From positions 1 through 22,040 of the IMG/VR virus record IMGVR_UViG_3300020074_000141: a stretch of 22,040 bases of DNA. One strand, written 5' to 3'. This document shows, piece after piece, positions 1,354-22,040 of the stretch. Every line of letters starts with the position of its first letter. The first letter of the stretch is position 1. A program made the position numbers and the translations under genes. A model generated the notes under the pieces. The model was not told where the DNA came from, did no database searches, and was given only the letters and a program-made list of their open reading frames with translations. This DNA is from a virus.

Positions 1354-1359
1354 CTTTAT

Positions 1360-1991: not shown

Positions 1992-1998
1992 AAAAATT

Positions 1999-2151: not shown

Positions 2152-2194
2152 GTAAAATATTAGTTAAGCGATCAATTTCTTCTTTACCAAATGA

Positions 2195-2386: not shown

Positions 2387-2387
2387 A

Positions 2388-2996: not shown

Positions 2997-2997
2997 T

Positions 2998-3573
2998 TTA
3001 ATATCCTCTCATTTTTTGACCAACGAAAATAATTCCATCCGCAATCTTGTTGCAGATTTTTCTTTTGAACCAGAGAAAGGGAGCGGTGTGAAAAAAATAT
3101 TTATTATACCAGAGATTATTTTCGCGATCCAATCTCTCCTCCCATTTTTTTGACTGCTCCTTTCTTCCTTGATTATCAGTTTTTTCAAACTTAAAAAGTT
3201 CAATGCGTTCAAGTTTTGAATCTGTAAAAATTGCCTTAAATTCTATCCAGCAATCCCACTTATCTTGGACATCGTATTGGTTATCGTAAAAATGAATGAC
3301 GCCGTGCAAATCTACTTTATCCCAATACTCATCAGTTCTTTCCATGCGTCCTGCACGGTCAGCAAAAGACTTGCCTTTTGGATCGGCTTGAATCCACCTT
3401 TGGTTTTTATATTTCTTCTCGAAAAGTTCACCATGCTGAATGCAATATTCAGACAATGAACAATCTAAATCTTTGGTTTGAAAATCTCTATTGTTCTTGT
3501 TCAAACCAAGATCAATCATTTCCTGTGAATAAGGAAGCTTGTCTGCTACAGATATATTATCGAACATTCCCAT
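2998..3573 (-). CDS. Conserved phage protein of the MFDNI...FQTKDLDC type
   Basis: A 191-residue protein beginning MGMFDNISVADKLP and carrying FQTKDLDCSLSEYCIQHGELFE near residues 31-52. This start and the FQTK-LDC-Y pattern recur in small proteins of many unrelated phages and some prophages; their function is unknown to me. The middle (GVIHFYDN...WDCWIEFKAIFTDSKLERIELFKFEK) looks like a beta-rich domain, and the C terminus is basic and aromatic. The ATG follows the upstream stop by one base (TAACATG). Confidence 0.7.
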   Translation of the reverse strand: MGMFDNISVADKLPYSQEMIDLGLNKNNRDFQTKDLDCSLSEYCIQHGELFEKKYKNQRWIQADPKGKSFADRAGRMERTDEYWDKVDLHGVIHFYDNQYDVQDKWDCWIEFKAIFTDSKLERIELFKFEKTDNQGRKEQSKKWEERLDRENNLWYNKYFFHTAPFLWFKRKICNKIADGIIFVGQKMRGY

Positions 3574-3574
3574 G

Positions 3575-3808
3575 TTATTTTTTAGTTAATTTAAATACGC
3601 CATCAGATTGCTCGGCCCAAATGATTTCGTCGTCTACTTTCCAGCCCAAACCATCTAGTAGCACTTTAGGAATCTCAATGAATTGGTCGCCGTTGTCAAG
3701 TGTTTTTATCGGAACATTTGCTTTTTTAGCGAAAATTTCATCCCAATTTTTGTCGAATTCCTCCTTAGAAACAGAAGGAGGTCTAGGCTTTGATCCTTTA
3801 CCGTTCAT
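3575..3808 (-). CDS. Small phage protein with AbrB/MazE-like C-terminal half
   Basis: A 77-residue protein in two parts. Residues 1-29 (MNGKGSKPRPPSVSKEEFDKNWDEIF) match a short conserved sequence found in tiny phage proteins (GKGSxxRP...F..NWD.IF). Residues about 42-77 (FIEIPKVLLDGLGWKVDDEIIW, then VFKLTKK) have the pattern of AbrB/SpoVT-type swapped-hairpin DNA-binding domains: short strand, IP, helix, LGW, GDE-like turn, strand. If that is right the protein may be a dimeric DNA-binding regulator. Only two bases separate it from the upstream stop (TAAAGATG). The first part is recognised from known phage proteins; the second assignment is by pattern. Confidence 0.68.
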   Translation of the reverse strand: MNGKGSKPRPPSVSKEEFDKNWDEIFAKKANVPIKTLDNGDQFIEIPKVLLDGLGWKVDDEIIWAEQSDGVFKLTKK

Positions 3809-3810
3809 CT

Positions 3811-4002
3811 TTAATTATAATTTTTATAATCAGGATAATCGAAATGCTTTTCCAGCAAACCCTGAAGCTCATCAAAAAAAGCATCGTCAGCTGTTACAGA
3901 ATTGAAGTGAATATTATTTTTATCTAGATTTTTATAAAGATTAAGAATAATATTCTTAACCTCTTCCATAGAAACTTCTCTGTTAATGTTTTTTTGATCC
4001 AT
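3811..4002 (-). CDS. Small acidic hypothetical protein
   Basis: A 63-residue acidic protein with two predicted helices (SMEEVKNIILNLYKNLDK and DAFFDELQGLLEKHF). No family is recognised. The ATG lies one base after the stop of the metallophosphoesterase gene (TAACATG), so it is very likely translated by coupling to it. It may be an accessory or regulatory peptide of the early operon, but nothing in the sequence defines the role. Confidence 0.62.
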   Translation of the reverse strand: MDQKNINREVSMEEVKNIILNLYKNLDKNNIHFNSVTADDAFFDELQGLLEKHFDYPDYKNYN

Positions 4003-4003
4003 G

Positions 4004-4696
4004 TTAGTGTATATTTATAATATCGATATTCTTATTTTCGTCAATGTCGAAAATAAAAGGCTTGTTGAGCGGAACATATTCCTCAGTGCAGATTGAGGCG
4101 TTAGCGTAAATGGTGTGATCCGTAGAAAAAATCTGACCACCTGAAGCGTGGATATGACCAAAGACATGCAATTTAGGTTTAACTTTTAAAACCTTATCTA
4201 GCAAATCTTTGCATCCCACATTTTCATAAGAGCCAAAATTCGAGCGAGGAGCTTCGTCTAAAATCTTGTAAGGTGGGCCATGAGTAATGAGAACGTCGGT
4301 GCCGCTTGGGATTTTATCCCAATGCTTTTTAATATCCTCTCCTCTATCTCTGTTGAACGCCCAGTTGAGGAAGCGAGGTTGAACAGGACTACCCCAAAAA
4401 TTTATTCCGAAAAGGTTGATGCCGCTATCGTTGAGATAATTGGTCGAATCATTCAAAAAGATATGCGTGAGCATTTCAATATCATGGTGCGAACCTTGCT
4501 CAAAAACAAGATCATGGTTTCCAGCAATAAAAATTTTTCTTTGGTGAGGTTGCGCTTGAAACCAACCCAAAAATTGGATTGCATCTTTGTATTGGCCATG
4601 AGAGCAGAAATCACCACAATGTATGAGAACGTCTCCGTCTGGCAAAGGAGCGCCATGCTTACCATGAGTGTCTGAAATTACGACTATTCTAGTCAT
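4004..4696 (-). CDS. Calcineurin-like metallophosphoesterase (MPPED/239AB type)
   Basis: A 230-residue enzyme with every metal-binding motif of the calcineurin-like superfamily: SDTHG (D9, H11), CGDFCSHG (D29), GNHD (N60, H61), THGPP (H139) and GHIH (H181, H183). The GNHD, LITHGPP and VFGHIH wording and the compact length fit the MPPED1/2 (239AB) class of metal-dependent phosphodiesterases. The substrate is unknown; phage members may act on cyclic nucleotides, nucleic acid ends or phosphorylated signals. It is the first gene of the leftward operon, 7 bases from a near-consensus promoter -10, so it is probably expressed early from a leaderless mRNA. Confidence 0.9.
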   Translation of the reverse strand: MTRIVVISDTHGKHGAPLPDGDVLIHCGDFCSHGQYKDAIQFLGWFQAQPHQRKIFIAGNHDLVFEQGSHHDIEMLTHIFLNDSTNYLNDSGINLFGINFWGSPVQPRFLNWAFNRDRGEDIKKHWDKIPSGTDVLITHGPPYKILDEAPRSNFGSYENVGCKDLLDKVLKVKPKLHVFGHIHASGGQIFSTDHTIYANASICTEEYVPLNKPFIFDIDENKNIDIINIH

Positions 4697-4703
4697 AAAA
4701 AAT

Positions 4704-4731
4704 ATCTTACTCTAAAAATTTCCTTTGTCAA
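4704..4731 (-). promoter_or_regulatory. Strong early promoter of the leftward operon
   Basis: On the minus strand TTGACA (4731-4726) is a perfect -35, followed by a 16-base spacer and TAAGAT (4709-4704) as -10. The ATG at 4696 lies 7 bases further on. It is the only close host-type promoter seen for nine leftward genes. The short distance predicts a leaderless or nearly leaderless message. It sits back to back with the rightward GTGTAAAT element at 4750. Confidence 0.75.
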
Positions 4732-4749
4732 TGGTTTTCCCTCAAAAAA

Positions 4750-4757
4750 GTGTAAAT
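4750..4757 (+). promoter_or_regulatory. Putative late promoter motif GTGTAAAT (copy 1)
   Basis: An exact GTGTAAAT lies in the divergent gap between the leftward operon and the rightward structural genes, 47 bases before the ATG at 4805. There is no -35-like partner. The core TGTAAAT resembles the T4 late element TATAAATA. It is one of four exact copies, all on the plus strand in gaps before late-type genes. Confidence 0.5.
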
Positions 4758-4804
4758 TATTAATTAGGCTTTAAAATATCAAAAAAAAATTAGAATAAAT
4801 TCTA

Positions 4805-5614
4805 ATGGCTTACGTTTCATATAATAATATTCGGGCATTTGTGTCCAATGGAGATGAGCAAAATACAAGCACAGGAGTTTGTAACGTATTATACGCATCT
4901 AATTTTAACGCCAATAATACAACTCAATTAAAAAGAATAAAAAGAATTGGTCAAGAGTTAGATTATTATATTCAAACTGGGCCTAAAAGCTCGTCTGTGT
5001 CTACAACAGTATTGCCCGTAACAGGCGCTGGAGTTAATCAATTCACTGGATTTCTCGCATTAACTGGAGATTTTACAAGTGGATCTTTTATTCATGTACC
5101 TTCGTATAGATTTGACAAATGCTTTTTAAAAAGCATGAGTTTTTCTCTTGAGCCTTGGAAGCCCATGTTTTTAGACATGCAGTTTGATTCTTATGGTCTT
5201 GCGACAGGCAGTGGTATATATGTATACGACGGTCAAACAGTTGAAACAGGAGTAATTTCTCCATTGAGAAACATGACAATTAATTTGTCAGGAATTAATT
5301 TTACGCAGCAAATTAACGAGTACGAAAATTTAAATTTTAGTATTGAGATCGACAGAGCAGCTAATTTTGAAATAGGAAGCACATACCCAACAAAAGTTAG
5401 CGTAAGTAAAATAACAAAATCATTGCAAATAAATGGTATATCCAATATTGATTGGCTTTCTGATTTTCAACCTAACACAACGGTTTCTGGCTCAATAACG
5501 ATGGCAGACGGAAATTCATTTTACATGTCTGGTGTTTTAAATTCTCAGACAGTTTCGATTGATAGTAACGGTGTAGCGAAAGGAGGGCTACAGATAATCG
5601 AAGAGATGGTGTAA
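4805..5614 (+). CDS. Putative tail tube or related virion structural protein
   Basis: A 269-residue beta-rich protein, poor in Cys and with many Ser, Thr, Gly and Asn. Residues about 176-214 (NLNFSIEIDRAANFEIGSTYP, then VSVSKITKSLQI) resemble the conserved segment of phage tail tube-like proteins, where a strand with a basic residue is followed by E-IG-xxP and a beta hairpin. The N-terminal part (YNNIRAFVSNGDEQ) and the repeated SG/TG strands fit a virion component. It is the first gene after the divergent promoter region and is followed 4 bases later by the PhoH gene. The structural role is reasonably likely; the precise tail tube label is inference. Confidence 0.5.
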   Translation: MAYVSYNNIRAFVSNGDEQNTSTGVCNVLYASNFNANNTTQLKRIKRIGQELDYYIQTGPKSSSVSTTVLPVTGAGVNQFTGFLALTGDFTSGSFIHVPSYRFDKCFLKSMSFSLEPWKPMFLDMQFDSYGLATGSGIYVYDGQTVETGVISPLRNMTINLSGINFTQQINEYENLNFSIEIDRAANFEIGSTYPTKVSVSKITKSLQINGISNIDWLSDFQPNTTVSGSITMADGNSFYMSGVLNSQTVSIDSNGVAKGGLQIIEEMV

Positions 5615-5618
5615 TTTT

Positions 5619-6389
5619 ATGGCAAAAAAGCCCAAGAAAACAAAGTCGGCATCTTCGGAAGTAATTATTCCGCAGATGAAAACAGAAATAAAATTCAAAG
5701 AGCGTAAATTCAAATTCACTGATAAACAACAACAGCTATTAAAAATACTTTTAGGAGACGAGACCAAAATAGTCTTTGTCGCTGGACCAGCGGGAACTTC
5801 AAAGACTTTTATGGCAGTCTACGCGGCGCTCAACCTCATCAACCACAATGAAAAAGATATTATCTATATTAGAACAATCGCTGAAAGCGGTGAAAAATCT
5901 CTTGGCTCGCTGCCAGGAACAATTGGTGAAAAGTTTCAACCATACCTACTTCCTCTTGAAGACAAAGTCCAAGAAATAATTGAAGCCATTGACGCTCACC
6001 GATTAAAAGAGGCTGGTTCAATCTCTGCGACTCCCATTAATTTCCTTAGAGGTAGCACTTTAACAGATAAAATTATAATAGCAGATGAAGTGCAAAATTT
6101 TACATTCAAGGAAATCACAACCCTGCTTACCAGAATCGGGGATGGGAGTAAAATTTTCCTATGCGGAGATTTTATGCAATCAGACATCAAGGGTAAAAAT
6201 GGATTTTTCGACTTTTACAATTTATTTTCAGACGAAGATTCCGAGCGACATGGAGTTTTTTCGTTCGAGTTCACAGAGGAAGATATAAAACGCAGCGAAA
6301 TTTTAAAATTTATTATCAGAAAAATTAAAAACATCGATTACGAAGAGGGTATAAAGAAAAACAGGGTTCCTTTCGAACAATCAAATTAA
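5619..6389 (+). CDS. phoH: PhoH-like P-loop ATPase
   Basis: A 256-residue protein with the PhoH family core. Walker A is GPAGTSKT at 56-63, the family segment GSLPGTIGEKFQPYLLP is at 96-112, FLRGSTL is at 142-148, and Walker B is IIIADEVQN at 152-160. A sensor-like FLCGDFMQSD follows. The first 30 residues are lysine-rich and probably disordered. PhoH genes are common in marine and freshwater phages; the family is thought to have RNA-related ATPase or helicase activity, but its phage role is unsettled. It starts 4 bases after the previous gene without an SD, so it is probably translated by coupling. It is unusual but not unique to find it beside packaging genes rather than in a metabolic block. 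Confidence 0.92.
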   Translation: MAKKPKKTKSASSEVIIPQMKTEIKFKERKFKFTDKQQQLLKILLGDETKIVFVAGPAGTSKTFMAVYAALNLINHNEKDIIYIRTIAESGEKSLGSLPGTIGEKFQPYLLPLEDKVQEIIEAIDAHRLKEAGSISATPINFLRGSTLTDKIIIADEVQNFTFKEITTLLTRIGDGSKIFLCGDFMQSDIKGKNGFFDFYNLFSDEDSERHGVFSFEFTEEDIKRSEILKFIIRKIKNIDYEEGIKKNRVPFEQSN

Positions 6390-6465
6390 TAAATTGAAAT
6401 TCAACGATATACAAATACAATATTGGTAAAGCTAGAAAATCTCAACAGTAAACTTATAAATTAAT

Positions 6466-6837
6466 ATGGCAAGCGCTTTCTGTCCAAATTGCGGCGCGAA
6501 ACACGAATATAGCGGCTTCGCCCCAAACTTTTGTTCAAAATGCGGTTCTCCTATGAACGGCAAGGCTTCATCGCAAGTACAAAAAAAGCCAAGTAGAAAT
6601 ACACATCAAGATGATATAGAAGAAGATTCGGAAGATAATACAAATATCAACGAACTCCCTCACATAGATAATCTTGATGTCGAGATTGAAATGGAGGGCG
6701 GATTCAGAGCTTTTAATTTAGAAGATTTATCGCGGAACCCTCAAGCTGGAGTAAGGAAATTTACTCCAAAAAGAGTTGGTGGGATAGATAGCTTATCTCC
6801 TACCAAATATGGAACTACAAAAGTCAGACAAGATTAA
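6466..6837 (+). CDS. N-terminal zinc-ribbon protein
   Basis: A 123-residue protein with a zinc ribbon at residues 6-26 (C6, C9, C23, C26; CPNCG...CSKCG), an acidic disordered middle (DDIEEDSEDNTNINELP) and a C-terminal segment ending in PTKYGTTKVRQD. The single ribbon plus an acidic linker is typical of adaptor or transcription-associated proteins. It overlaps the sigma factor gene by 29 bases, so the two are co-expressed and might work together. TATAAATT at 6455-6462 precedes the ATG by only 3 bases and is not counted as a promoter. Function is not known. Confidence 0.72.
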   Translation: MASAFCPNCGAKHEYSGFAPNFCSKCGSPMNGKASSQVQKKPSRNTHQDDIEEDSEDNTNINELPHIDNLDVEIEMEGGFRAFNLEDLSRNPQAGVRKFTPKRVGGIDSLSPTKYGTTKVRQD

Positions 6838-7513
6838 ATACGAAGATAAGCAAGACGTAGTTGATAAAATCATAGAAAAGCACAGGTATATCTGGCAACT
6901 TAAAGCCGTTGCTTGGATGGATTACGAAGATGTCGCGCAAATAATTCGTTTCCATATTTTCAAAAAATGGGAGATGTGGAAACAAGATCGTCCACTTGAG
7001 CCTTGGATTGCGCGCATCACCGTCAATCAAATTAAAAATCTTTTACGAAATAATTATTCAAATTATGTTCGTCCATGTTTATCTTGTAAGTTCAATTTGG
7101 GTAATCACCCCCCAGCTTGCTCTATCACACCAAGCGGTAAACAATGTTCAGAATGCCAATTGTATAGAAAATGGGAGAAAACAAAGAAAGCCGCATATGA
7201 TGTTAAACTTTCCGTCTCTATAGAAAATCATTTTGAATCTATCCAAGAGATGAGAGATTTAAATTTTAATATTATAGGTAGCGCGGCAAGACTTCACGAA
7301 GAAATGAAGCATCGTTTAGCGCCTAAACAATATAAGGTTTATTCTAGGCTTTACATTGATGGGATAGATGAAGAAAAAGTTGCGATAGAAATGGGATACA
7401 AAACAAATGAAAAGGGCAAGAAAGCTGGGTATAAGCAGATCAAAAATCTTAAAAAAATATTTAAACAAGTCGCAATTAAAATTTTACAAAACGAGGATAT
7501 TTTAGGTGGTTAA
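6809..7513 (+). CDS. Phage RNA polymerase sigma factor with zinc-binding insert
   Basis: A 234-residue protein with the two-domain plan of small sigma factors. Residues about 36-82 (WMDYEDVAQIIRFHIF...PLEPWIARITVNQIKNLLR) match region 2, where YEDVAQ and the PWI-RI-N-IKNLLR helix correspond to the core-binding and -10 recognition parts. Residues about 170-222 (LAPKQYKVYSRLYIDGIDEEKVAIEMGY...) match region 4 with its helix-turn-helix. Between them lies a cysteine cluster (C90, C93, C104, C113, C116) suggesting a zinc-binding insert. In T4-type phages gp55 directs host polymerase to late promoters; this protein is the natural candidate to read the GTGTAAAT elements, which is inference. It overlaps its neighbours on both sides. 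Confidence 0.72.
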   Translation: MELQKSDKIKYEDKQDVVDKIIEKHRYIWQLKAVAWMDYEDVAQIIRFHIFKKWEMWKQDRPLEPWIARITVNQIKNLLRNNYSNYVRPCLSCKFNLGNHPPACSITPSGKQCSECQLYRKWEKTKKAAYDVKLSVSIENHFESIQEMRDLNFNIIGSAARLHEEMKHRLAPKQYKVYSRLYIDGIDEEKVAIEMGYKTNEKGKKAGYKQIKNLKKIFKQVAIKILQNEDILGG

Positions 7514-8570
7514 TAATAAAATAAGCTTTTCAGAAGAAGACAAAAAGAAAATATTGGAAATATCAAAAGAGTTTCCAGATTTAAATAGTATTACGCGCAA
7601 ATTTTTTAATGACGAAAGTCTAGACGGGCGCACAAAACAAGGCATTGCGATAAGGTCTCTTTTAGCTTCTAATAAAATACAATATAAAACGTCAAAGTAC
7701 GAAAAGGTTGGAGATCTGCACCTTACCCCAGAACAGGAACAGTTTATAGAAGAGCAAGCCAATAATGGCATTTCTAGCCTGAGAATTGCTGAACTTCTTT
7801 ATTCAGATAGGCCAATATCAACAATGGGTTTGGAGCATAGAACTGTTGCCGCTCATATTAGAAATTCTGGCTGCGAAAACAATGGGGTATCTGACGACGC
7901 CATTTTTGTTAAATACCAAACGCCGCGATCAATAGAAAGAGTTATTAACCGAATTAATGAGGCAACTGGAGAAAAAATAGATAAAGATAAACTGACCAGA
8001 CATCACAAAATGTGTGCGGAAAAACTTTCTATTAATCTGGGGAATTCTAGATTTCAAAAGATTATAAATTGCTATACCGCAGAAGATGACAGGAATATTT
8101 TTGAGCAAGAATTTATCCGCATGACATGGGACAAGCCTGATTTGACTGCTGATGAAGTTAATTTGTATATGAACGTTTGCAAAGAGATTATCAATCTAGA
8201 AACTATCTCTCGACACTTGGACAAACTTAACAAAATGTTTGAAGAGACGCAAGAGCAGAATGAAATGAGTATTCGTTTGGCCGAAATTATAAAAGCCAAA
8301 AGCAGTGAATATCATCAATGCGAAGGCCGAGTAGAAAGCTTAATTAAAAAATTACAAGGAGACAGGCGCGAGAGAATTTCTTCCAAACAAAAAGAAAACG
8401 CCTCTATTCTTTCTATCGTTCAACTTTTTCAAGACGAAGAAGAGCGAGCAAATATGATTAAAATTGCAGAAATGCAAAAGTCTTTAGTTATCGATGAAGC
8501 TAAAAAAATGGAGACTATGGTAGAATGGAAAGCTCGTATATTAGGAATATCATTAGACGATGCAACCTAA
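7506..8570 (+). CDS. Helix-turn-helix protein, candidate small terminase subunit
   Basis: A 354-residue helical protein starting with GTG at 7506, inside the end of the sigma gene (8-base overlap). Residues about 73-120 (LTPEQEQFIEEQANNGISSLRIAELL...HRTVAAHIRN) look like a helix-turn-helix DNA-binding domain. A long helical part follows, with probable coiled coil between about 230 and 300. The C-terminal end (ETMVEWKARILGISLDD) overlaps the next gene by 11 bases. DNA-binding plus oligomerising helices, two genes before the large terminase, suit a small terminase subunit, but the protein is larger than usual and the sequence is not diagnostic. A transcription regulator is the alternative. Confidence 0.5.
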   Translation: MVNNKISFSEEDKKKILEISKEFPDLNSITRKFFNDESLDGRTKQGIAIRSLLASNKIQYKTSKYEKVGDLHLTPEQEQFIEEQANNGISSLRIAELLYSDRPISTMGLEHRTVAAHIRNSGCENNGVSDDAIFVKYQTPRSIERVINRINEATGEKIDKDKLTRHHKMCAEKLSINLGNSRFQKIINCYTAEDDRNIFEQEFIRMTWDKPDLTADEVNLYMNVCKEIINLETISRHLDKLNKMFEETQEQNEMSIRLAEIIKAKSSEYHQCEGRVESLIKKLQGDRRERISSKQKENASILSIVQLFQDEEERANMIKIAEMQKSLVIDEAKKMETMVEWKARILGISLDDAT

Positions 8571-9537
8571 CGACTCTAACTGCTGCAAAATTTGCCGCAG
8601 TTCCTTTTCTTCAGAAAGGAGTCTCCACGCGCATTTAAAAAAGCACAAGATTACTATTAATGAGTATTACGCTACTCATTACCCAAGAAAAAATCTTTTA
8701 ACAGGGACTTATTTGCAGTTTAAAGACAAAGAGTCATATTTCGAAAAAGATTTCGAAAATAGAGAGCAGCTTTTAAGGTGGTGTGAAATAGAATCTCCAG
8801 AAAAGGTAAGAGAGCAGATTAAAAAAATGCTAGTGTATAGGGTGCAGAGTAAAGATTTAAAATATGCACCATGTCATTTAGAGTTGGAAACTAGTGATAT
8901 GCCAACTATTGATCTTTATAAAAAATATTTTGGTTCATATTCTGCAATATGCGACGAGATCAAAATTGAGACTATGTTTAGAAAAAGTTTGCCTAAAAAA
9001 TTTCGCGAAGACTTTTCTGACGTTGAAATTTTTGTTGATACAAGAGAGCAGCAGCCCTTGAGTTTCAAAAGAGAGAGACAGGTTAAATTAGATTTTGGTG
9101 ACTATACCGCTGGTGGGGCCAACTATACAAAAACTTTTGTTGATAGAAAGTCTGAATCTGATTTTAAAGGAACTTTAGTTGGAGATAACTTGAATAGATT
9201 TAGGCGAGAGCTACAAAGATGCAAGGAAATGGAATGTTATTTGTTTATAGTTGTCGAATCTACTTTAGAACGTATAAAGAGTAATAACGACTTTACTCCT
9301 CATAAGGCGAATTTGAAATTCATATACCACAACATGAGATTGCTGCAACATGAGTTTGCGGGATATTGCCAATTTATATTTTCAGGTAATAGAACTAATA
9401 GTGAAATTCTAATTCCCAAGTTGACTGCAATCGGCAGTCTTCTTTGGGGCGTGGACGTTCAATATTTTCTAGACAAGGATTTATTATGGCTTGGATCGAA
9501 GGAAATCAAAAAAGAAACGGCTTATTCCGTAACGTAA
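8560..9537 (+). CDS. C2H2 zinc finger-ERCC4 nuclease fusion
   Basis: A 325-residue protein. Residues 9-29 form a canonical C2H2 finger (C9-x2-C12-x12-H25-x3-H29) followed by KITINEYY, as in MucR-like and phage fingers. Residues about 154-260 carry the ERCC4/XPF nuclease motif: VDTREQQP (159-166), GDY (180-182) and VDRKSESD (194-201), the equivalent of the catalytic GDx(n)ERKxxxD, with RFRREL downstream. ERCC4 nucleases cut branched or structured DNA near single/double-strand junctions. Placement directly before the large terminase, with overlap, suggests a role in trimming replication intermediates before packaging or in recombination. The D-R-K variant of the usual ERK is noteworthy. Domain calls are firm; the role is inference. 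Confidence 0.82.
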   Translation: MQPNDSNCCKICRSSFSSERSLHAHLKKHKITINEYYATHYPRKNLLTGTYLQFKDKESYFEKDFENREQLLRWCEIESPEKVREQIKKMLVYRVQSKDLKYAPCHLELETSDMPTIDLYKKYFGSYSAICDEIKIETMFRKSLPKKFREDFSDVEIFVDTREQQPLSFKRERQVKLDFGDYTAGGANYTKTFVDRKSESDFKGTLVGDNLNRFRRELQRCKEMECYLFIVVESTLERIKSNNDFTPHKANLKFIYHNMRLLQHEFAGYCQFIFSGNRTNSEILIPKLTAIGSLLWGVDVQYFLDKDLLWLGSKEIKKETAYSVT

Positions 9538-11354
9538 ATCAAGAAATTCTTAATAAGCGAGGATTTCTTGAAGAAAGAGAGGCCAAAATTCTTCTCTACA
9601 AATTCTTGCGTTCAAATATTTCATTTTCTTCGGAGATTATTTGCGGCGTCAAACTTTTTCCATTTCAACACATGGCAATTAAAACCATGTTTGAAACAGA
9701 TTATTCTATGATGGTATGGAGTCGTGGATTATCAAAGAGCTTTACCTGTGCAGTGTTCGCTTCTTTGGATGCGATATTAAATCAAGGCGTACACATTGGC
9801 ATTGTTAGTAAAACATTCCGTCAAGCAAAGATGATTTTCCGAAAGATAGAAGAGATCGCTGAAAAGCCTAACGCGGTATTTTTAAAACAATGTATCACCA
9901 AAGTATCCAAAAGCTCTGATGAATGGACAATGGATATTGGGCGCAGCAAAATTACTTGTTTACCTTTGGGTGATGGTGAAAAGCTTCGTGGCTTTCGTTT
10001 TCACCGTATGATGATTGATGAATTTTTACTAATGCCAGATCGTATTTTCAATGAAGTTATCATCCCGTTTCTTTCTGTTGTTCAAAATCCGACCGAAAGA
10101 AAACAAGTTTATGATTTAGAGACCGAGCTTATAAAACGCGGAGAATTAAAAGAAGAGAACAGATTTATTTGGCCTAATAATAAAATCGTCGTTCTTTCGT
10201 CTGCGTCTTATCAGTTTGAATATATGTATAAATTATACAAGCAGTACGAGGATTTGATAATGGTCCCCGAAAAGAATGCTAAAGCTTCTGCTAGTAGAGC
10301 AATTTTACATTTTTCTTACGATGTAGCTCCTAACGGTTTATACGATGAGAGCTTACTAACTCAAGCTAAAGCAACGATGTCCGAATCGCAATTTAAAAGA
10401 GAATTTGGCTCACAGTTTGTTGATGATTCGTCTGGTTATTTTAAACTTAGTAAAATGCACGAATGCACAATCAAAGCTGGTGAAGGACAGTCAATTGAAG
10501 TCGCTGGCGAAAAAAATGCCGAATATATTTTAAGCTTTGACCCATCGTGGGCAGAAAATGAATCTTCTGACGACTTTGCCATGAATATAATAAAAATTGA
10601 TAAAGCGGCTCGAAAGGGAATTCTTGTTCATAACTATGCGCTTTCAGGAACAAATTTGAGAAAACATATTGAATATCTTTATTATTTATTTAATCACTTT
10701 AATATTGTTGCAATGTGTGGTGACTATAATGGTGGATTACAATTTATAAACGCCGCAAACGAAAGCGAATTATTTAAAAATAGTAAAATTGAAATTAAGA
10801 TATATGAAGCTGATTTTGATACGCCAGAAATTTATCAAGATGAGTTAAGAAAAGCAAGAAATGCATATAACAAAAGCGCAAATAAAATTTGTTACTTGCG
10901 GATACCAACAAGTTCATGGATTAGATATGCTAATGAGCTGCTGCAATCAAACTTCGACCATAGGAAAATTCTTTTTGGAGCAGAAGCGGTCGATAATGAT
11001 TTTACCACCCAAAAAAATAAAACTATCCCAATTAAAAGTTTAAAATTTATTCGAGACCAAGAAGATAGCCAAAGTATTGAAGCCAAAATGGTCGATTTTG
11101 TTGACCATCAGGCTGATATGATAGAATTGGTAAAAGCGCAATGCTCTCTTATAATGCCTACAACAACGGCTAATGGACACCAGAGTTTTGATTTGCCGCC
11201 AGAGTTAAAAAAACAAAGCGGAGCAGAAAAAACGAGAAAAGACTCTTACTCCTGTTTGGTTTTAGGTAATTGGATGACTAAAGTATATTTTGATATGATA
11301 GATGTGAAAGTCGAAAAAAGTACTTCTACATTTGCCCCGTTTTTCGCTCGGTAA
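9486..11354 (+). CDS. terL: Terminase large subunit
   Basis: The 622-residue packaging motor ATPase and nuclease. FPFQHMAIK (58-66) precedes a Walker A-like SRGLSKS (79-85); VSKT at 108-110 follows, and Walker B is MMIDEF (175-180). The C-terminal part is the RNase H-like nuclease, with a first acidic strand YILSFDPS (D352) and later GDYNGG. The start at 9486 is chosen because AAGGA at 9475-9479 lies 6 bases upstream; an in-frame TTG at 9444 would add 14 residues inside the previous gene and has no such support. It pumps DNA through the portal encoded next. The phage-type Walker A lacks the common GxxGxGK pattern, as in many terminases. Confidence 0.92.
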   Translation: MAWIEGNQKRNGLFRNVNQEILNKRGFLEEREAKILLYKFLRSNISFSSEIICGVKLFPFQHMAIKTMFETDYSMMVWSRGLSKSFTCAVFASLDAILNQGVHIGIVSKTFRQAKMIFRKIEEIAEKPNAVFLKQCITKVSKSSDEWTMDIGRSKITCLPLGDGEKLRGFRFHRMMIDEFLLMPDRIFNEVIIPFLSVVQNPTERKQVYDLETELIKRGELKEENRFIWPNNKIVVLSSASYQFEYMYKLYKQYEDLIMVPEKNAKASASRAILHFSYDVAPNGLYDESLLTQAKATMSESQFKREFGSQFVDDSSGYFKLSKMHECTIKAGEGQSIEVAGEKNAEYILSFDPSWAENESSDDFAMNIIKIDKAARKGILVHNYALSGTNLRKHIEYLYYLFNHFNIVAMCGDYNGGLQFINAANESELFKNSKIEIKIYEADFDTPEIYQDELRKARNAYNKSANKICYLRIPTSSWIRYANELLQSNFDHRKILFGAEAVDNDFTTQKNKTIPIKSLKFIRDQEDSQSIEAKMVDFVDHQADMIELVKAQCSLIMPTTTANGHQSFDLPPELKKQSGAEKTRKDSYSCLVLGNWMTKVYFDMIDVKVEKSTSTFAPFFAR

Positions 11355-11395
11355 AAGTTATTGAAAGTACTTTTGATACTTTTAGTGTAACTTTT
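11353..11395. repeat. Stem-loop and ACTTTT repeats between terminase and portal
   Basis: AAAAGTTA (11353-11360) and TAACTTTT (11388-11395) form 8-base inverted arms. Between them AAAGTACTTT (11364-11373) is itself palindromic, and ACTTTT occurs three times (11369, 11378, 11390). The first arm includes part of the terminase stop codon, and the last overlaps the late-motif variant. It could be a weak terminator or a regulator-binding site. Confidence 0.45.
11385..11392 (+). promoter_or_regulatory. Putative late promoter motif, variant GTGTAACT (copy 2)
   Basis: GTGTAACT differs by one base from the exact motif and lies 15 bases before the portal ATG at 11408. As with the other copies there is no convincing -35. 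It overlaps an inverted repeat. It is the weakest of the five sites. Confidence 0.4.
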
Positions 11396-11407
11396 AATAT
11401 AAGAAAA

Positions 11408-13330
11408 ATGGCACGCCAATATAATAAAAAATCTGATTATTGGACTAAATTTAATAAAGTCGAGACTGTTCAAGTTTCTCAAGCTTCTTATGAGCCGAAA
11501 CTTATGGGAGAGTCTTTCTACAAAGAAATATCTCAGGCTTCATACGCAAGGACGAAAGACAACCAGTCTTCAACAAAAACAAAAGTTCCGAGAAATGGAA
11601 GAGATGTTAATATTGGTAGATATTCGCTTTTAAGTCAAGGACTTTTGCCTTATGAATATACAAAAGATGGAGTAGATATAAGAGACGCAATTATGCTTTG
11701 TCAAAAAGCATATGCTAATGTCGCGATAGTCAGAAACACTATAGATATAGCTACTGAATTCGCGAATACCGATGTTTATCTTGAAGGGGGGACTGAAAGA
11801 AGCAGGGAGTTTTTCCAAAAATGGTTTAATAAAATCAAGCTTTGGAAATTAAAAGATCAATATTTTCGCGAATATTATCGTAGTGGAAATATTTTTCTCT
11901 ATAGAATCGACGGTAAATTTAATGCAGAGGATTTTAAACTACTTTCTGGTTTAAGTGAAAACGGCATAAAAAACAACAAAGTTCCTCTTCGTTATATTTT
12001 AATTAATCCATACGACATTGTCGCGAAGATTTCTAGTTCGTTTGCGGAAGCGGTTTACGAAAAAATTCTTTCCGAATATGAACTCGAACGTCTAAAAAAT
12101 CCCAAAGATGATACTGATGTCGAACTTCTTAATGGATTTGATCCAGAGGTTCAAAAACAAATCAAAGGTAAACAGTATTTCAGAGATGGTTTGAAAATGA
12201 AACTTGACCCAAAATATTTACTTTATTCTTTTTATAAAAAACAAGATTATGAGCCATTTGCGGTTCCTTTCTCTTATCCTGTTCTTGAAGATATTAACGC
12301 AAAAATCGAATTAAAACGCATCGATCAAGCTATTGCTCGTACTGTGGAAAACGTAATTTTGTTAATTACGATGGGAGCAGAACCAGACAAGGGTGGAATT
12401 AATCCCGCCAACATGACAGCTATGCAAAACTTATTTATGAACGAAAGCGTTGGTCGCGTTCTTGTTTCCGATTATACAACAAAGGCTGATTTCATAATTC
12501 CTGATCTAAAAAAAGTTATCGGTAAAGAAAAATATGAAGTTTTAAACGAAGACATTAAGGAAGGTTTGATGAACGTTATGCTTGGTAATGAGAAATATAA
12601 CGGTCAAAGCGCGAAAATTAGCTTTTTTATGGAGCGCTTGAAAGAAGCTAGAAATGCTTTTCTAAATGATGTTCTTCAGCCAGAAATTATTCGCATTTCA
12701 AAAGATTTGGGGTTTCGCACTTGGCCTATGGCGAAATTTACTGAGATTGACTTAAAAGATGAAACCCAGTACATGAGGACTATTAGCCGTTTAATGGAAA
12801 TTGGCATTCTTACTCCAGAACAAGGCATTGAATCAATTAGTAATGGTAAGCTTCCAAATCCAAATGATCTTGCTCCCGCGCAAGAAAAGTTTGTTTCAGA
12901 TAGGGAGAAAGGGTATTACAATCCAATTATAGGCGGGGTTCCAATGATTCAAGACACAGCACCGACTCCAACCGCGATACCAAAAGAGTCTGGTGCTGGA
13001 AGACCAATTGGGACAACAGCCTCAAGAAAAGATATTCAAACAACTGTTTATGAAATTGATGCCTTTATGAAAGCTGCGGAAGACTTTACCGCAAAGAAAT
13101 TTGGAGTAGCGTCTTTAAATTCAGATCAGCAATCAAACGTGATAACACTTTGTAAAAAAGTTATCGCGTCAAGTTTAAGAGAAGATTGGGTTTCAAACGT
13201 GCAAAAATGCATAGGTAATGTCGATGAAATAGAAAAACTTCACCCTATGCAATCTGTTCTTGATAAGGCTGATGAATTTTTACTTGATGAATATTCTGCG
13301 GCTATTTTATATCATTCTGCTGTAAAATAA
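11408..13330 (+). CDS. Portal protein
   Basis: A 640-residue protein immediately after the large terminase. Residues about 90-190 have the portal wing and crown pattern (YANVAIVRNTIDIATEFANTDVYLEGG, then WFNKIKLWKLKDQYFREYYRSGNIFLYR), and about 310-440 the clip and stem region (ELKRIDQAIARTVENVILLITMG, then EKYNGQSAKISFFMERLKEAR). The dodecameric portal forms the DNA channel and binds terminase. The C-terminal 120 or so residues follow a proline-rich linker (DTAPTPTAIP near 515) and look like a separate helical domain (VYEIDAFMKAAEDFTAKKFGV...), which is longer than a minimal portal. It is followed after 3 bases by the protease-scaffold gene. Confidence 0.88.
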   Translation: MARQYNKKSDYWTKFNKVETVQVSQASYEPKLMGESFYKEISQASYARTKDNQSSTKTKVPRNGRDVNIGRYSLLSQGLLPYEYTKDGVDIRDAIMLCQKAYANVAIVRNTIDIATEFANTDVYLEGGTERSREFFQKWFNKIKLWKLKDQYFREYYRSGNIFLYRIDGKFNAEDFKLLSGLSENGIKNNKVPLRYILINPYDIVAKISSSFAEAVYEKILSEYELERLKNPKDDTDVELLNGFDPEVQKQIKGKQYFRDGLKMKLDPKYLLYSFYKKQDYEPFAVPFSYPVLEDINAKIELKRIDQAIARTVENVILLITMGAEPDKGGINPANMTAMQNLFMNESVGRVLVSDYTTKADFIIPDLKKVIGKEKYEVLNEDIKEGLMNVMLGNEKYNGQSAKISFFMERLKEARNAFLNDVLQPEIIRISKDLGFRTWPMAKFTEIDLKDETQYMRTISRLMEIGILTPEQGIESISNGKLPNPNDLAPAQEKFVSDREKGYYNPIIGGVPMIQDTAPTPTAIPKESGAGRPIGTTASRKDIQTTVYEIDAFMKAAEDFTAKKFGVASLNSDQQSNVITLCKKVIASSLREDWVSNVQKCIGNVDEIEKLHPMQSVLDKADEFLLDEYSAAILYHSAVK

Positions 13331-14959: not shown

Positions 14960-15580
14960 ATGGCAAATCGTCTCCTACCATTCCGTCAATACGACGACAA
15001 TGATGTGGTAAATATGTACGCTCTCGTTGACGCAGCCGTCAACGATAACGTAACCGGCGTTGGAACTGGTGACGCAGGAGTCTTCGTTAAAGTTTCCGCT
15101 GGTAACTTTGACCTTGACCCTGTTTCATACGCTTCCGACTCTTATCTCGGCAAGACCGACTATCCTCATGTCGGTGTTAATCAATATCCCAAGGTAAATC
15201 TTAAAGTTACTCCTGCCGCTTCTGGCGACTTGACAAACTGCCTCGGGATCACCCTTCGTCAGACCGCAAAGCACGACGAGAACGGTGAGAAACTTCTCTA
15301 TTATCGCCAAAAAGCTGAAGAGCTTATGTGCGTACTGCCCGGCCAAGCCGTTCCAGTCGCCACTCGCGGTATTTTCTCTCTGTCCGCAGGTGCAATTGAC
15401 GGAACCCTTACTGTCGGTTCAGGCTTTAAGCTTTCTGAAAATGGCGGTAAAGTCACTGGCTGCGCTCATACTGATGCCGGTAAACTCGGCATCGTTCTCG
15501 GCACAGGTTCACGCGCCTCGCTCACAAGCATTACTGACGCTTTCGCGGGCAACTTCGCGGTAATCGGCCTGCGCATGTAA
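14960..15580 (+). CDS. Capsid decoration or head-stabilising protein (putative)
   Basis: A 206-residue Gly, Ala and Val-rich protein beginning MANRLLPFRQYDDNDVVNMY. It is predicted to be mostly beta structure, with small-residue turns (VGTGDAGVFVKVSAG, LSAGAIDGTLTVGSG). It lies between the scaffold and the major capsid genes, where phages commonly encode decoration proteins; the sequence alone does not prove it. A good SD, AAAGGA at 14946-14951, sits 8 bases before the ATG, and codon use is GC-richer than in the phage body, both consistent with high expression. TGTAATAA at 14932-14939 resembles the late motif only weakly. Confidence 0.58.
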   Translation: MANRLLPFRQYDDNDVVNMYALVDAAVNDNVTGVGTGDAGVFVKVSAGNFDLDPVSYASDSYLGKTDYPHVGVNQYPKVNLKVTPAASGDLTNCLGITLRQTAKHDENGEKLLYYRQKAEELMCVLPGQAVPVATRGIFSLSAGAIDGTLTVGSGFKLSENGGKVTGCAHTDAGKLGIVLGTGSRASLTSITDAFAGNFAVIGLRM

Positions 15581-15600
15581 TAACAAAGGAAACTACTTAA

Positions 15601-16740
15601 ATGAAAATCACATTAAAGCGCACTCCAGAACAAATTGAGCTTGTTAAAGCAATGGCCAGCCGTAATCGCACCGTTGCTTATGACGCTCAAGTCGCACTTG
15701 CTGAGTTTATCGGACCCGTTCTTGCAGAGGTAATCAACAATGCTCCTACACTGAGCAATCTGTTCACAAGCCTCTCTTACAACGCTGATGATAATCCCAG
15801 CATTCCTCTTGACCTGTATTACGATGTAACTGACGAGGACTACATCACTGTATACTCGCAGTCCGTAGCTGGTGGTCTTCCCACAAATCAGGTTCTTCCA
15901 ACCGTCTCCGAGATGAAGCTGTCCACTTATACATTAGACAGCGCCCTCTCGTTTGACCGCCGTTATGCGGCCAAACATCGTATGGACGTTGTAGCTAAGA
16001 CATTCACCCGTATGGCTCAGGAAATCCTGCTCAAGCAGGAGCGTACCTCTGCCACACTGGCAATGACTGCTCTTGCCAACGCTACCACAAATAGCAAAAA
16101 GCACGTTCAGCGTTCAAACACCTCTGGCCGCTTCCTTCTTGCTGACTTGAACGAACTGCTCACACTAGCCAAGCGCATCAATACATCATGGGCCAAGGGT
16201 ACACCTGCCACTGGTTCACGCGCTGGCCTTACCGATCTTCTGGTTTCTCCAGAAATCGTTGAGCAGATTCGTGCAATGGCTTACAACCCCATCAACACCG
16301 TTGCTGGAGTTACAGCCACTGGCGGCACAGGTTCGACAGTTGGAATTACAGCTACTGACGAAATGCGCAGCGCTATTTATAGCGCCGCTGGCATTCCCAG
16401 TTTCTATGGCGTTTCTATCCTTGAGTTCAATGAACTCGGCAAGGGTCAGAAGTTCAACACGATCTTCGACACTGCCGCTGGTGCTACAGCTTACACCACA
16501 GCTGCTGGTGGTAGCTCGGGAGCATTCGACGGAGACGCTTCAGAAATCCTCGTCGGTCTTGACCGTACCCGTGATTCCTTACTGCGCGTTGTCGCAACTG
16601 ATCCAGACTCCAATGCGGAGTTCAATCTGGTTGCCGATGACCAATACAGCATCCGCCAGAACAAAATTGGCTACTTCGGCTCTCTTGAAGAGGGGCGTGT
16701 AGTCCTTGATGTTCGCGCTCTTGTTGGTAAGATCGTCTAA
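15601..16740 (+). CDS. Major capsid protein
   Basis: A 379-residue protein that directly follows scaffold and decoration genes and has the HK97-fold pattern: an N-terminal helical arm (TPEQIELVKAMASRNRTVAY...), an E-loop-like region, and a long central helix region (QEILLKQERTSATLAM). A P-domain follows, with LLADLNELLTLAKRI and LLVSPEIVEQIR (the strand-then-helix seen in capsid A-domains), and the protein ends in GRVVLDVRALVGKIV. AAAGGA at 15585-15590 gives a good SD 10 bases upstream. The GC-rich, C-ending codons suit a highly expressed gene. A strong terminator follows the stop within 17 bases. No other gene in the window could fill this role. Confidence 0.87.
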   Translation: MKITLKRTPEQIELVKAMASRNRTVAYDAQVALAEFIGPVLAEVINNAPTLSNLFTSLSYNADDNPSIPLDLYYDVTDEDYITVYSQSVAGGLPTNQVLPTVSEMKLSTYTLDSALSFDRRYAAKHRMDVVAKTFTRMAQEILLKQERTSATLAMTALANATTNSKKHVQRSNTSGRFLLADLNELLTLAKRINTSWAKGTPATGSRAGLTDLLVSPEIVEQIRAMAYNPINTVAGVTATGGTGSTVGITATDEMRSAIYSAAGIPSFYGVSILEFNELGKGQKFNTIFDTAAGATAYTTAAGGSSGAFDGDASEILVGLDRTRDSLLRVVATDPDSNAEFNLVADDQYSIRQNKIGYFGSLEEGRVVLDVRALVGKIV

Positions 16741-16833: not shown

Positions 16834-17229
16834 ATGGAAATCTCAACTGGACAATCCAAAGAAATTACTAAAGCTAGTCTATTAGATCAGCTTAATTCTA
16901 TTGTGGATAAAAATTCATCCGAATATCGTTCGAAAGTAAGAGAACTAGAAGTCGCGCTAGGCATAAAGGAAGTTAATATTTTTGGCACAGCTAATCGTAA
17001 AATTTTTGAAGAGAACATTGATGCGATGTCTCAATTACAACTCCAAGATTTTGCGCGAAAACTCAAAATTGATGGGTCTGGTACTATGGCCGCTATCAAA
17101 ACGCGTCTTTTGCGTCAATTTGACACTCAAAATATACAATCCAGAGGATACTTCTCTCCCCAACCAGAACAAAAAGAATTGTTCTCAAAACAGCAAAAAG
17201 AAAAGCTGTATAAGATTTTAAATGGCTAA
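16834..17229 (+). CDS. Post-capsid protein with SAP-like motif
   Basis: A 131-residue helical protein. Residues about 64-96 (AMSQLQLQDFARKLKIDGSGTMAAIKTRLLRQF) match the SAP motif: leucine-spaced helix, LKI-GSGT turn, and a second helix with IKTRLL. SAP motifs usually bind AT-rich DNA, and in phages they also occur in head-end proteins. Residues 1-45 look like another helical region, and the C terminus is basic and polar. Its place after the capsid gene suggests a head-completion or DNA-end protein, but that is inference. Its last eight bases overlap the next gene. Confidence 0.6.
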   Translation: MEISTGQSKEITKASLLDQLNSIVDKNSSEYRSKVRELEVALGIKEVNIFGTANRKIFEENIDAMSQLQLQDFARKLKIDGSGTMAAIKTRLLRQFDTQNIQSRGYFSPQPEQKELFSKQQKEKLYKILNG

Positions 17230-17698
17230 TTTATTTCAAGTCGCTAGTGGAATTTTTTTTTATGAATTTGACGCTGACACATCAGAGGTCAATATTAGTT
17301 CAATCTCAGGCTGGTTAGAAGCAAACATTGGAGAATTAAATAATTTATTATATACAAGTTTTAGTGGAACTAATGTTGATTTAAATCCAGAACAGGCAAA
17401 CATTTATAAGCATTTGTATCTTGGCCATTATTACAAAAAAAAATCCCGAAACGCAATCAAAGCATTGGGTGCAGGTTCTGGCAGCGCGATTTTATCGATT
17501 AGAGATGAAGACAGTTCCGTTACATTCGTAAATAGTAACGAAATTAGCAAACAGTTCCGTCAGATATCAAAAGACAATTTTGAGGAAATGAATCGTTTAG
17601 TCAATTTTTACAATTCATATCAGGCCGCGCCCGTTCAGGTAGTTGGTAAAAATATGGTTGGCGACGCGTTAACATTGACTGGCACAGGATTAGTTTAA
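17222..17698 (+). CDS. Putative head-tail connector protein
   Basis: A 158-residue mostly helical protein. Its pattern, NISSISGWLEANIGELNNLLYTSF followed by PEQANIYKHLYLGHYYKKKSRNAI, resembles small head-completion or adaptor proteins that sit between the portal and the tail, and it lies in the usual order after the capsid gene. The identity is not certain; a general virion protein is the alternative. The start overlaps the previous gene (AAATGG), and translation is probably coupled. A terminator follows. Confidence 0.5.
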   Translation: MANLFQVASGIFFYEFDADTSEVNISSISGWLEANIGELNNLLYTSFSGTNVDLNPEQANIYKHLYLGHYYKKKSRNAIKALGAGSGSAILSIRDEDSSVTFVNSNEISKQFRQISKDNFEEMNRLVNFYNSYQAAPVQVVGKNMVGDALTLTGTGLV

Positions 17699-17717
17699 TA
17701 TATTTAATATTAGATTT

Positions 17718-17745
17718 AAAAGCGCATCGTAAAGATGCGCTTTTT
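17718..17745 (+). terminator. Intrinsic terminator abutting a late motif
   Basis: AAAAGCGCATC (17718-17728), loop GTAAA and GATGCGCTTTT (17734-17744) make an 11-bp stem with a following T. The next base begins GTGTAAAT, so termination and reinitiation are immediately adjacent. Confidence 0.85.
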
Positions 17746-17753
17746 GTGTAAAT
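17746..17753 (+). promoter_or_regulatory. Putative late promoter motif GTGTAAAT (copy 4)
   Basis: An exact copy directly after a terminator hairpin and 18 bases before the ATG at 17772, exactly the distance seen for copy 3. The stretch where a -35 would lie is occupied by the terminator stem, which argues for a promoter without a -35. Confidence 0.62.
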
Positions 17754-17771
17754 TTAGTAATAGCCATCATT

Positions 17772-18113
17772 ATGCCCGCGTCAACACATAATATTTCAAT
17801 TGAAAGAAATGCAAATTTCGGTGTAAGTTTAATCTTAAAAAATGCTGACGGAACTCCAATTGATGTTACTAATGCGACCATAGATGCAGAAATTAAACAA
17901 GATTATTATCTTCCAACCTTAGAAACATTTACGATTACTAAAACGTCACCTGCCGTTGGTCAAATCACTCTTTCTTTAACCTCCGCTCAAACTGCCGCTT
18001 TACATCCTGGTCCGTTAAAATATGATGTGTTGATTAAGTACAACAATAACCACTTTCAAAAAATTATGAAAGGTGTGGTATTTGTTGATACAAACATAAC
18101 AACATTATCATAA
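17772..18113 (+). CDS. Virion protein of the BppU/fibre N-domain type
   Basis: A 113-residue beta-rich protein with the pattern ISIERNANFGVSLILKNADGTPIDVTNATIDAEIKQD...GQITLSLTSAQTAALHPGPLKYDVLI...KGVVFVDTNITTLS. This is a common phage structural module (strand-rich, with G-P-D-T/V-T near 26-32, LT--QTAAL, G---YDV, and a closing G-V-V-D--IT) found in fibre or baseplate proteins. Its role is probably attachment of fibres to the virion. It is separated from the next gene by one base. It does not contain the whole fibre, so it may be an adaptor subunit. Confidence 0.6.
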   Translation: MPASTHNISIERNANFGVSLILKNADGTPIDVTNATIDAEIKQDYYLPTLETFTITKTSPAVGQITLSLTSAQTAALHPGPLKYDVLIKYNNNHFQKIMKGVVFVDTNITTLS

Positions 18114-20472: not shown

Positions 20473-22040
20473 ATGGGGAAGTATTATCTAGGTACAGGTA
20501 GTCAACAAATTAATTTCCAAGTAGTTGATGCTACTGGAGTTATAAATGATTTAAATTTAAGTGGTTTGTATTTAAGTGTTACTGGCAAAGCTGCCGATGC
20601 TGATAAACTAGATAGCTATGATAGTTCTTATTTTTTAAATAATTCAAATGTTAGTGGGGTACAAAATTATTTAGCAAAATTTACGCAGACAAATTCTGTT
20701 GGAATTAGCTCAATATACGATAATGCATCAGGTCAGATTAGATTTAATGGATACACTTCTACATCATCATTCCCAGGAACAGTAGCAGGTTTCATAGGTT
20801 TTGATTCTAGTGGTAATTTAATTACTGTAGCAGCAAGTGCAGGTGGCCTTGGTGGTTCTGGTATTACAAACTATGTAGCTAGATGGACATCTAGTTCTGC
20901 TATAGGAACAGGAGTATTATATGATAACGGAACAAATGTTGGTATAGGTACTACAAATCCAAATCAAAAATTAGATGTTCGCGGATATGTAGTATCTGAT
21001 GTAACAGGAGCTGTTAACGAAGGTGGGTTTTATCTAGGCAATAGCGCTCATGGAATCAGAAGAGCATCTGCTACAAATGACGTTTATGTCTATACAACCA
21101 GCGGTTCTCTTTACTTGGGCGCTAGTGGAGCCAGTACGCAGCACGTCGCAATAAGTTCTGCTGGAAATGTTGGTATAGGTACTACAGCACCTGCTGCTAA
21201 ACTTAATGTAAAAGGAGGCGATGTCTGGATAGATAATAGGGCAGCGGGTTCATATCAGGCAACTAAAATTTCATTATTCGCAGGCGATTCTAGCGGCGCA
21301 TGGAATATTTTTGATATTAAATATACTAAAACGAATTTAGTTGATAGAATTGGATTTGTTGACGGCGGCGCGACTGAGGTAATATCTATTCTAAATGGCG
21401 GTAATGTTGGTATTGGAACAACAAGTCCTAATGCGAAGTTGGAGGTGGCGGGCAACGCGACGGTGGGCGGGACGCTTGGTGTCAGCGGAAAGGTCACTGT
21501 CACCAACGCGAATGTCCGCTTGTCTAACGCCTATGCGTTGAGTGGGAATCTTGTAGCCGGAACGGAGATTGCGTTGATCCTGAGGAATTCCAGCGATAAG
21601 GTCGGAATTGATCCAGACGGTTACGGAATCGTGACTGGTGGAGCCGCGACGGTGGGCGGGACGCTGACGGTCAGCGGCGCGGGAGACAGTAGCGTGGCGG
21701 GTAACTTCGGAATTGGAACGACGACTCCGAGTTATTCGCTACAAGTATCTTCGTCCAGCAGCGCCAACTACTTTCCGCTAGCTCTTTCTTCCGGTCTGAT
21801 CGGAACGATTGGAAATACGGTTGGCGTTCGTTTTGGATACATCGGGTCAACCTACCAGAAAGGCGCAATCATTTTCGAAAGCACAAGCGTCAACGGCGTT
21901 GGGAAAATGCACTTCGCGCTGAACGCAACGGAAAACTCCAGCAATGCTGTTTTAGCTGACTCAAAAGCGGTTCTCACAAGCAGCGGCAACCTCCTCATCG
22001 GCAAGACTACTCCTGACGGCGGGCAGAAGTTGCAGGTGGC
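20473..22040 (+). CDS. Tail fibre with GxGTT repeats (3' end outside window)
   Basis: An ATG at 20473 opens a frame of 522 codons that continues past the right edge with no stop, so only the N-terminal part is seen. The N terminus (MGKYYLGTGSQQINFQVVD) resembles that of the preceding fibre gene (YYTGVQVGNQINFATGD). Five repeats carry N-V/F/L-G-I-G-T-T-x-P followed by KL-V: N at 155, 232, 311, 411 and 506, 77-100 residues apart. Such repeats are common in fibres. Codon use is AT-rich to about 21430 and GC-rich after. No SD is seen; TATATATTTAGG precedes the ATG. It is probably receptor-binding. Confidence 0.82.
   Translation, partial: MGKYYLGTGSQQINFQVVDATGVINDLNLSGLYLSVTGKAADADKLDSYDSSYFLNNSNVSGVQNYLAKFTQTNSVGISSIYDNASGQIRFNGYTSTSSFPGTVAGFIGFDSSGNLITVAASAGGLGGSGITNYVARWTSSSAIGTGVLYDNGTNVGIGTTNPNQKLDVRGYVVSDVTGAVNEGGFYLGNSAHGIRRASATNDVYVYTTSGSLYLGASGASTQHVAISSAGNVGIGTTAPAAKLNVKGGDVWIDNRAAGSYQATKISLFAGDSSGAWNIFDIKYTKTNLVDRIGFVDGGATEVISILNGGNVGIGTTSPNAKLEVAGNATVGGTLGVSGKVTVTNANVRLSNAYALSGNLVAGTEIALILRNSSDKVGIDPDGYGIVTGGAATVGGTLTVSGAGDSSVAGNFGIGTTTPSYSLQVSSSSSANYFPLALSSGLIGTIGNTVGVRFGYIGSTYQKGAIIFESTSVNGVGKMHFALNATENSSNAVLADSKAVLTSSGNLLIGKTTPDGGQKLQV
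20935..20955 (+). repeat. 21-base direct repeat, first copy
   Basis: Twenty-one bases encoding NVGIGTT recur exactly at 21166-21186, 231 bases (77 codons) later in frame. The third copy at 21403 has diverged. Confidence 0.85.
21166..21186 (+). repeat. 21-base direct repeat, second copy
   Basis: Identical to 20935-20955. The exact match over an otherwise different segment suggests recent duplication or homogenisation of the fibre repeats. Confidence 0.85.
21457..21476 (+). repeat. 20-base GC-rich direct repeat, first copy
   Basis: Twenty bases encoding most of ATVGGTL recur at 21646-21665, 189 bases (63 codons) later in frame, and GTCAGCGG follows both copies a few bases downstream. Both copies lie in the GC-rich part of the fibre gene. 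Confidence 0.85.
21646..21665 (+). repeat. 20-base GC-rich direct repeat, second copy
   Basis: Identical to 21457-21476. Together they show internal duplication within the acquired GC-rich fibre segment. Confidence 0.85.

Follow-up and report, generated by a model that had tools for sequence, protein, structure and literature searches.

The DNA analysed here (in the following called the window) comprises 22,040 bp and is an entire IMG/VR virus record, so that its last gene is cut by the contig end. It contains a structural block of a tailed phage with a terminase gene (PF03237, 5.8e-9), capsid-region genes and tail genes. The protein encoded at 15601-16737 is taken to be the capsid protein, judged by its position; it has 520 relatives in viral contigs, the best 80 of which were taken for our locus set, and no match in phage records. 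Directly before the terminase frame, with an overlap of 94 nt as called, sits an ORF (8560-9537) with a DTREQQP motif that presumably resembles those of ERCC4-type nucleases.

The last gene is tail-fibre-like. Its first 522 codons (20473-22038; + strand, as for all fibre features given below) are open to the contig end, in agreement with a preliminary description of this DNA. A profile search matched it to the PHROG tail fibre families phrog_9942 (1.5e-10) and phrog_18345 (1.8e-8) and gave no Pfam match. Because the complete homologous fibre in L224, which is part of the L005 record, has 2169 codons, the window covers about the first quarter of a gene of this kind. The relatives are collinear with the window at about 70-82% DNA identity until fibre codon 56-63, beyond which the alignment is lost. 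Codons 1-63 (20473-20661) constitute a conserved N-terminal domain with 80-89% amino-acid identity to L003-L014 and others, the last part collinear with the family members, and the fibre after it is variable. T-even-type module-exchanging fibre genes likewise have a conserved N-terminal part and a variable remainder. In L007-L014 and L062, the same N-terminus is followed by many internal tandem repeats in place of NVGIGT modules. The domain Peptidase_S74, a C-terminal intramolecular chaperone, is present in the GC-rich locus L102 (1.1e-12) and was not found in the L224 fibre by profile search; the window gene ends before the C-terminus. An AlphaFold2 model of the fibre was set aside at a mean pLDDT of 51.

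The fibre contains repeated linkers with the consensus G-N-V-G-I-G-T-T-S-P-x-x-K-L-x-V and relatives of it. Three of them belong to a 44-nt repeat family: the AT-type repeats 1 (20935-20978; NVGIGTTNPNQKLDV) and 2 (21166-21209; NVGIGTTAPAAKLNV), and repeat 3 (21403-21446; NVGIGTTSPNAKLEV), a hybrid with an AT-type first and a GC-type second half, which starts exactly where a third NVGIGTT had been reported. Further linkers, all of the GC type, follow downstream. A GNATVGGTL linker (21451-21476) and a second GNATVGGTL/TVSG copy (21645-21677) match L090 and L092 exactly over 26 and 25 nt, respectively. The short duplication described earlier for the GC-rich part was recovered here as 33 nt at 21456 and 21645 with 88% identity, the first 21 nt being identical. 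A fourth motif, GNFGIGTTTP, was recognized from its sequence at 21700-21729, and at the contig end lies the linker GNLLIGKTTPDGGQKLQV (21983-22040; 96.6% identical over 58 nt to L094). The contig thus ends within another linker (22015-22040), and its last 26 nt include the 23-mer GACGGCGGGCAGAAGTTGCAGGT.

A composition switch within the third linker

A change-point scan of the fibre gene located a GC3 step at 21433, from 0.18 upstream to 0.63 downstream, with a log-likelihood ratio (LLR) of 56.7. The highest LLR among 1000 codon shuffles, which served as the null, was 13.8, and the remaining window genes reach at most 4.2. The change in composition and codon use, previously placed at about 21430, is therefore real and can be positioned at one codon. 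Across the switch, the observed/expected CpG ratio rises from 0.81 to 1.32. We compared the fibre with 483 ORFs, each 400 codons or longer, in the fetched viral loci; a single one, the linker-bearing fibre of L088, has a higher LLR (64.6), and the four ranking next below the window fibre are linker-bearing fibres, too.

The seam falls inside a single linker, the third repeat. Positions 21400-21432 match the AT-type linker of L215 at 32/33 positions, and from 21436 a stretch of 18 nt (AAGTTGGAGGTGGCGGGC) is one base off the GC-type linker AAGTTGCAGGTGGCGGGC. Together, the GC3 change point and the switch of DNA relatives place the putative crossover at 21430-21438.

Searching all fetched loci with each half separately, as the preliminary description had suggested, yielded different best relatives. 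The upstream part (20641-21432) has DNA matches only in phages of GC 0.31-0.48, whereas the GC-rich part (21433-22040) matches almost only fibres of phages of GC 0.48-0.63, apart from L006 and some weak matches to linkers. In the GC-rich loci matching the downstream half, all of them short, none of the window structural proteins was detectable; the donors were therefore not close relatives.

Two other regions of the window deviate in composition. The left end (1-1100) is GC-rich, with a gene at 52-756 having a GC3 of 0.59. We considered this as a sign of a chimera and discarded it, since an independent, near-identical contig, L223 (99.95% over window positions 2-12111), passes through and runs on for 7.8 kb at GC 0.47-0.54 (L223:12000-19912). 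The phage genome itself hence has a GC-rich part adjoining the AT-rich structural part. At 14960-16740, two adjacent structural genes, probably of the capsid region, have a GC3 of 0.48-0.49 compared to about 0.28 in their neighbours, and an equivalent rise (0.53) occurs in the relative L227. This is possibly due to codon selection in abundant proteins.

Exchange points in related fibres

All sequences compared here are metagenome contigs. L006, from the window's family and another metagenome, has a GC-rich island (16973-17790) inside an AT-rich fibre, both seams of which lie in GNV(L/G)IGT linkers (entry GNVLIGT, exit GNVGIGTTSP). L016 and L017 represent one species from two metagenomes, with 98.3% identity over 8 kb. 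The two fibres are 97% identical for 902 nt, then part within SGNVGIGT(P/T)SPG into unrelated segments of about 1260 and 770 amino acids (GC3 0.51 and 0.44, compared to 0.31 upstream), and come together again at another conserved linker, G(N/D)LTVNGTTTTVNSTTVTVDDPI. The pair documents a natural swap of the segment between two linkers within a single species from the phage family of the window.

Similar cases were found in further loci. L095 and L096, whose backbones belong to different groups, share a 357-nt cassette with 100% identity between unrelated flanks, starting with the GNLTVSG linker and ending just past a DGGQKLQV linker. In the pairs L090/L091 and L099/L102 only one flank is common, from the linker onward. 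A module of L096 between two GNLTVSG linkers is 91% identical over 219 nt to a module in the fibre of L005, a member of the window's family. Around the GTTTTVNSTVTTIDDPI linker, a 143-nt fibre segment of L089 (7671-7813) is 97.9% identical to L006:18765-18907, while the backbones differ. The fibre frames of L006 (18743-18781) and L017 (19375) end or shift just past the VDDPI linker and those of L005 and L016 stay open; these are either assembly errors or real breaks at an exchange point.

Exchange points thus coincide with conserved motifs in the window, in L006 and in the L016/L017 pair. Across 61 dereplicated fibre ORFs, GC3 steps are enriched in the vicinity of the motifs (KS test, P=2e-4; P=0.001 when motifs are compared with random sites). 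For the ends of near-identical shared segments, a first test showed no enrichment in linkers (43/1369) and was dominated by the redundant tandem-repeat fibres L007-L014 and L062. The version replacing it, which is dereplicated, uses a broader linker definition and has a P value to be read accordingly, placed 16 of 48 independent breakpoints in linkers, with 7.9 expected (about 2-fold; P=0.003). As the other 32 lie outside linkers as defined, linkers are favoured but not exclusive breakpoints.

The linkers are also conserved as DNA. The 23-mer GACGGCGGGCAGAAGTTGCAGGT occurs exactly in 16 other viral contigs and in none of the contigs that make up 84,980 species genomes of bacteria and archaea. 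A degenerate search with every synonymous form of it hit 59 viral contigs and 35 genome contigs. The latter matches are all outside of a fibre context, and we rejected a cellular donor on these two grounds. We assembled a non-redundant GC-rich set (n=16) of the window and L006, both entering via the exact form of the 23-mer, and 14 GC-rich contigs from the degenerate search, 13 of which have an identical linker, with one base different in L119. Within this set, the linker is 99% identical (third positions 96-100%), and the flanks drop to chance identity (25-31%) beyond about 45 nt from it. Even the low-frequency codons GGG (background 12%) and TTG (background 14%) are fixed. In 29 AT-rich phages encoding the same peptide, identity at third positions is 0.36-0.43 and thus close to background. 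Of the 19 sites with a second linker, GGCAACCTCACCGTCAGCGG (GNLTVSG), in the GC-rich set, 12 are identical, and this linker occurs in L017 as well.

Such conservation is not universal. The window's own motif GNVGIGTTSPNAK appears in many synonymous versions in 41 other viral contigs, so that the conservation at the DNA level belongs to the GC-type linkers. In the AT-rich phages L205, L206 and L184, a GNVGIGTTSP linker is GC-rich (GC3 0.58-0.67) amid AT-rich flanks, as if it had its own history. Searching isolate phage records with the linker DNA gave no match at useful scores; at the peptide level, relatives in these records were found only in phages of Polaribacter, Synechococcus and Roseobacter.

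Origin of the mosaic and candidate recombinases

The fibre gene is a mosaic with its seam in a linker, separate relatives for the two halves and GC-type linkers that are identical at silent sites. We consider it probable that this structure arose as fibre modules were swapped in frame at short linkers, for the most part guided by homology. The long tail fibre would then consist of modules parted by short repeated linkers that serve as exchange points, a crossover in one of them altering the adjoining module. Such a crossover would keep the reading frame and the protein fold because the linkers are the one stretch common to different fibres. In an ancestor of the window phage, an in-frame and in-register exchange within the third linker probably joined an AT-rich fibre to the modules of an unrelated GC-rich phage. 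Homology within the linker presumably guides the exchange, and single-strand-annealing phage recombinases of the ERF/RecT kind probably act on it in cells infected by both phages. Overall, phages in the wild seem to remodel their fibres with interchangeable parts that they have in common.

The outcome would be an altered host recognition. Of the proposal made in the preliminary description, the part that invokes a frame-preserving recombination at the conserved repeat is well supported by the differing relatives of the halves, the seam position, the L006 island and the L016/L017 swap. Its second part, the replacement of the receptor-binding end, is not supported: the seam lies at residue 320 of a fibre that in relatives is as long as 2169 residues, the contig breaks off within the gene, and the exchanged piece in L006 is internal.

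Candidate recombinases were found in some of the phages. An ERF annealase is encoded in the L102 record (5e-29), and another one is annotated in C75C1, a distant relative with a complete circular genome; one of its large proteins and the L090 counterpart have 54% identity. The records of L098 and L099 contain RecT-like matches that stay below the cut-off, and RecA is present in one distant record, G034. Neither ERF nor RecT nor RecA was found in the close family of the window, whose records are incomplete.

Illegitimate recombination is a rather unlikely alternative, in which modules are joined without linker homology and joints in linkers are seen only because they give working fibres. It would account for the 32 of 48 breakpoints outside linkers and for the few long exact runs that AT-type and GC-type linkers have in common. 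The two types differ at most silent positions, and a crossover between the lineages therefore had little exact homology available. However, it does not predict the silent-site identity of linkers between otherwise unrelated modules, in the n=16 set as well as at the GNLTVSG sites, nor its loss where AT-rich phages encode the same peptide. Silent-site identity is not needed for protein function and points to exchange at the DNA level.

It is similarly unlikely that an assembler joined AT-rich and GC-rich phage contigs at a linker common to both. The window's exact seam occurs in no other viral contig searched and is known from this contig only, the exact seam of L006 was not found in other contigs either, and a near-identical contig (L002) stops at 17410, ahead of the fibre. 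Contigs moreover tend to end at linkers, as does the window itself. Against such a chimera, no GNxxIGT motif of the GC-rich loci fetched matches the window linker exactly over more than 13 nt (L083), a length below that of common assembly k-mers. Furthermore, the frame remains open across the seam, and like seams occur independently, twice within the L006 contig and in the L016/L017 pair.

That a site-specific system, such as an invertible fibre segment, a shufflon or a diversity-generating retroelement, reassorts the modules is very improbable. Exchangeable modules flanked by repeated, near-identical DNA sites would fit it, but the inverted repeats within the fibre gene are weak and no crossover sites of the invertible-segment or shufflon kind were seen in it, the crossover place varies from the start of the linker in L006 to its end in the window, and the window ORFs searched yielded neither a recombinase nor a reverse transcriptase gene. 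We regard as negligible the chance that the 3′ part became GC-rich through codon selection or mutational bias acting locally, without any exchange, since, despite the raised GC3 of the capsid-region genes, the step in the fibre is abrupt and the sequence following it is near-identical in DNA to that of unrelated GC-rich phages, as in L094.

Beyond the preferred reading of homology-guided swapping, we tentatively suggest that unrelated environmental phages may share a pool of fibre cassettes between standard DNA linkers, such as GGCAACCTCACCGTCAGCGG and GACGGCGGGCAGAAGTTGCAGGT, whose silent positions would be kept as recombination sites. If true, this would be a natural interchangeable-parts system for tail fibres across phage lineages and GC classes.

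How unrelated phages trade pieces of host-recognizing proteins with frame and fold unbroken is an open question, to which the usual answers are only general. Here, exchange points are named to the base in several lineages and conserved as DNA besides protein, so that the question can be put to a direct laboratory test. The linker DNA also provides a sequence handle for finding exchanged fibre cassettes in metagenomes. A warning follows for such data, as assemblies break at the linkers and could be falsely joined there.

Relation to known systems

One close parallel is the swapping of gp37/gp38 adhesins in T-even phages via recombination between conserved tail-fibre motifs, which Tetart, Desplats and Krisch are said to have described in 1998. 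In both systems, short conserved motifs in tail-fibre genes are the exchange points for neighbouring segments, which in T-even phages are specificity segments. The window fibre differs in its protein and motif, in an internal seam that comes early in a fibre reaching up to 2169 residues, in exchange that crosses unrelated backbones of different GC, and in linker DNA that is conserved at silent sites. No homology to gp37/gp38 was found: L224 matches Phage_T4_gp36 only below the threshold (0.0075) and the window fibre lacks a Pfam match, making the system T-even-like in its working but not a member by descent.

Motif-directed tail-fibre mosaicism is thus known, and the linkers themselves are apparently undescribed. 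In the part of the literature covered, no paper joined the VGIGT motif with phage fibres and no description of conserved fibre linkers was found, which is weak evidence of novelty.

Rad52-like phage recombinases were shown experimentally to make mosaics between diverged sequences in lambdoid temperate phages (De Paepe et al. 2014, PMC3945230). Common to that system and ours are homology-driven mosaics tolerating diverged sequence and ERF-family annealases; here, a role of the recombinase is inferred, and the annealase was found in a GC-rich phage, but in no close family member of the window. Smug et al. 2023 (PMC10684548) reported mosaicism of the domains of receptor-binding proteins in phages, including widespread fibre mosaicism. 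As in the window, fragments of tail fibres are being shuffled between phages. That study worked at the level of protein profiles, with the word "linker" absent from its main text, whereas the fibres described here have base-resolved exchange points in conserved DNA.
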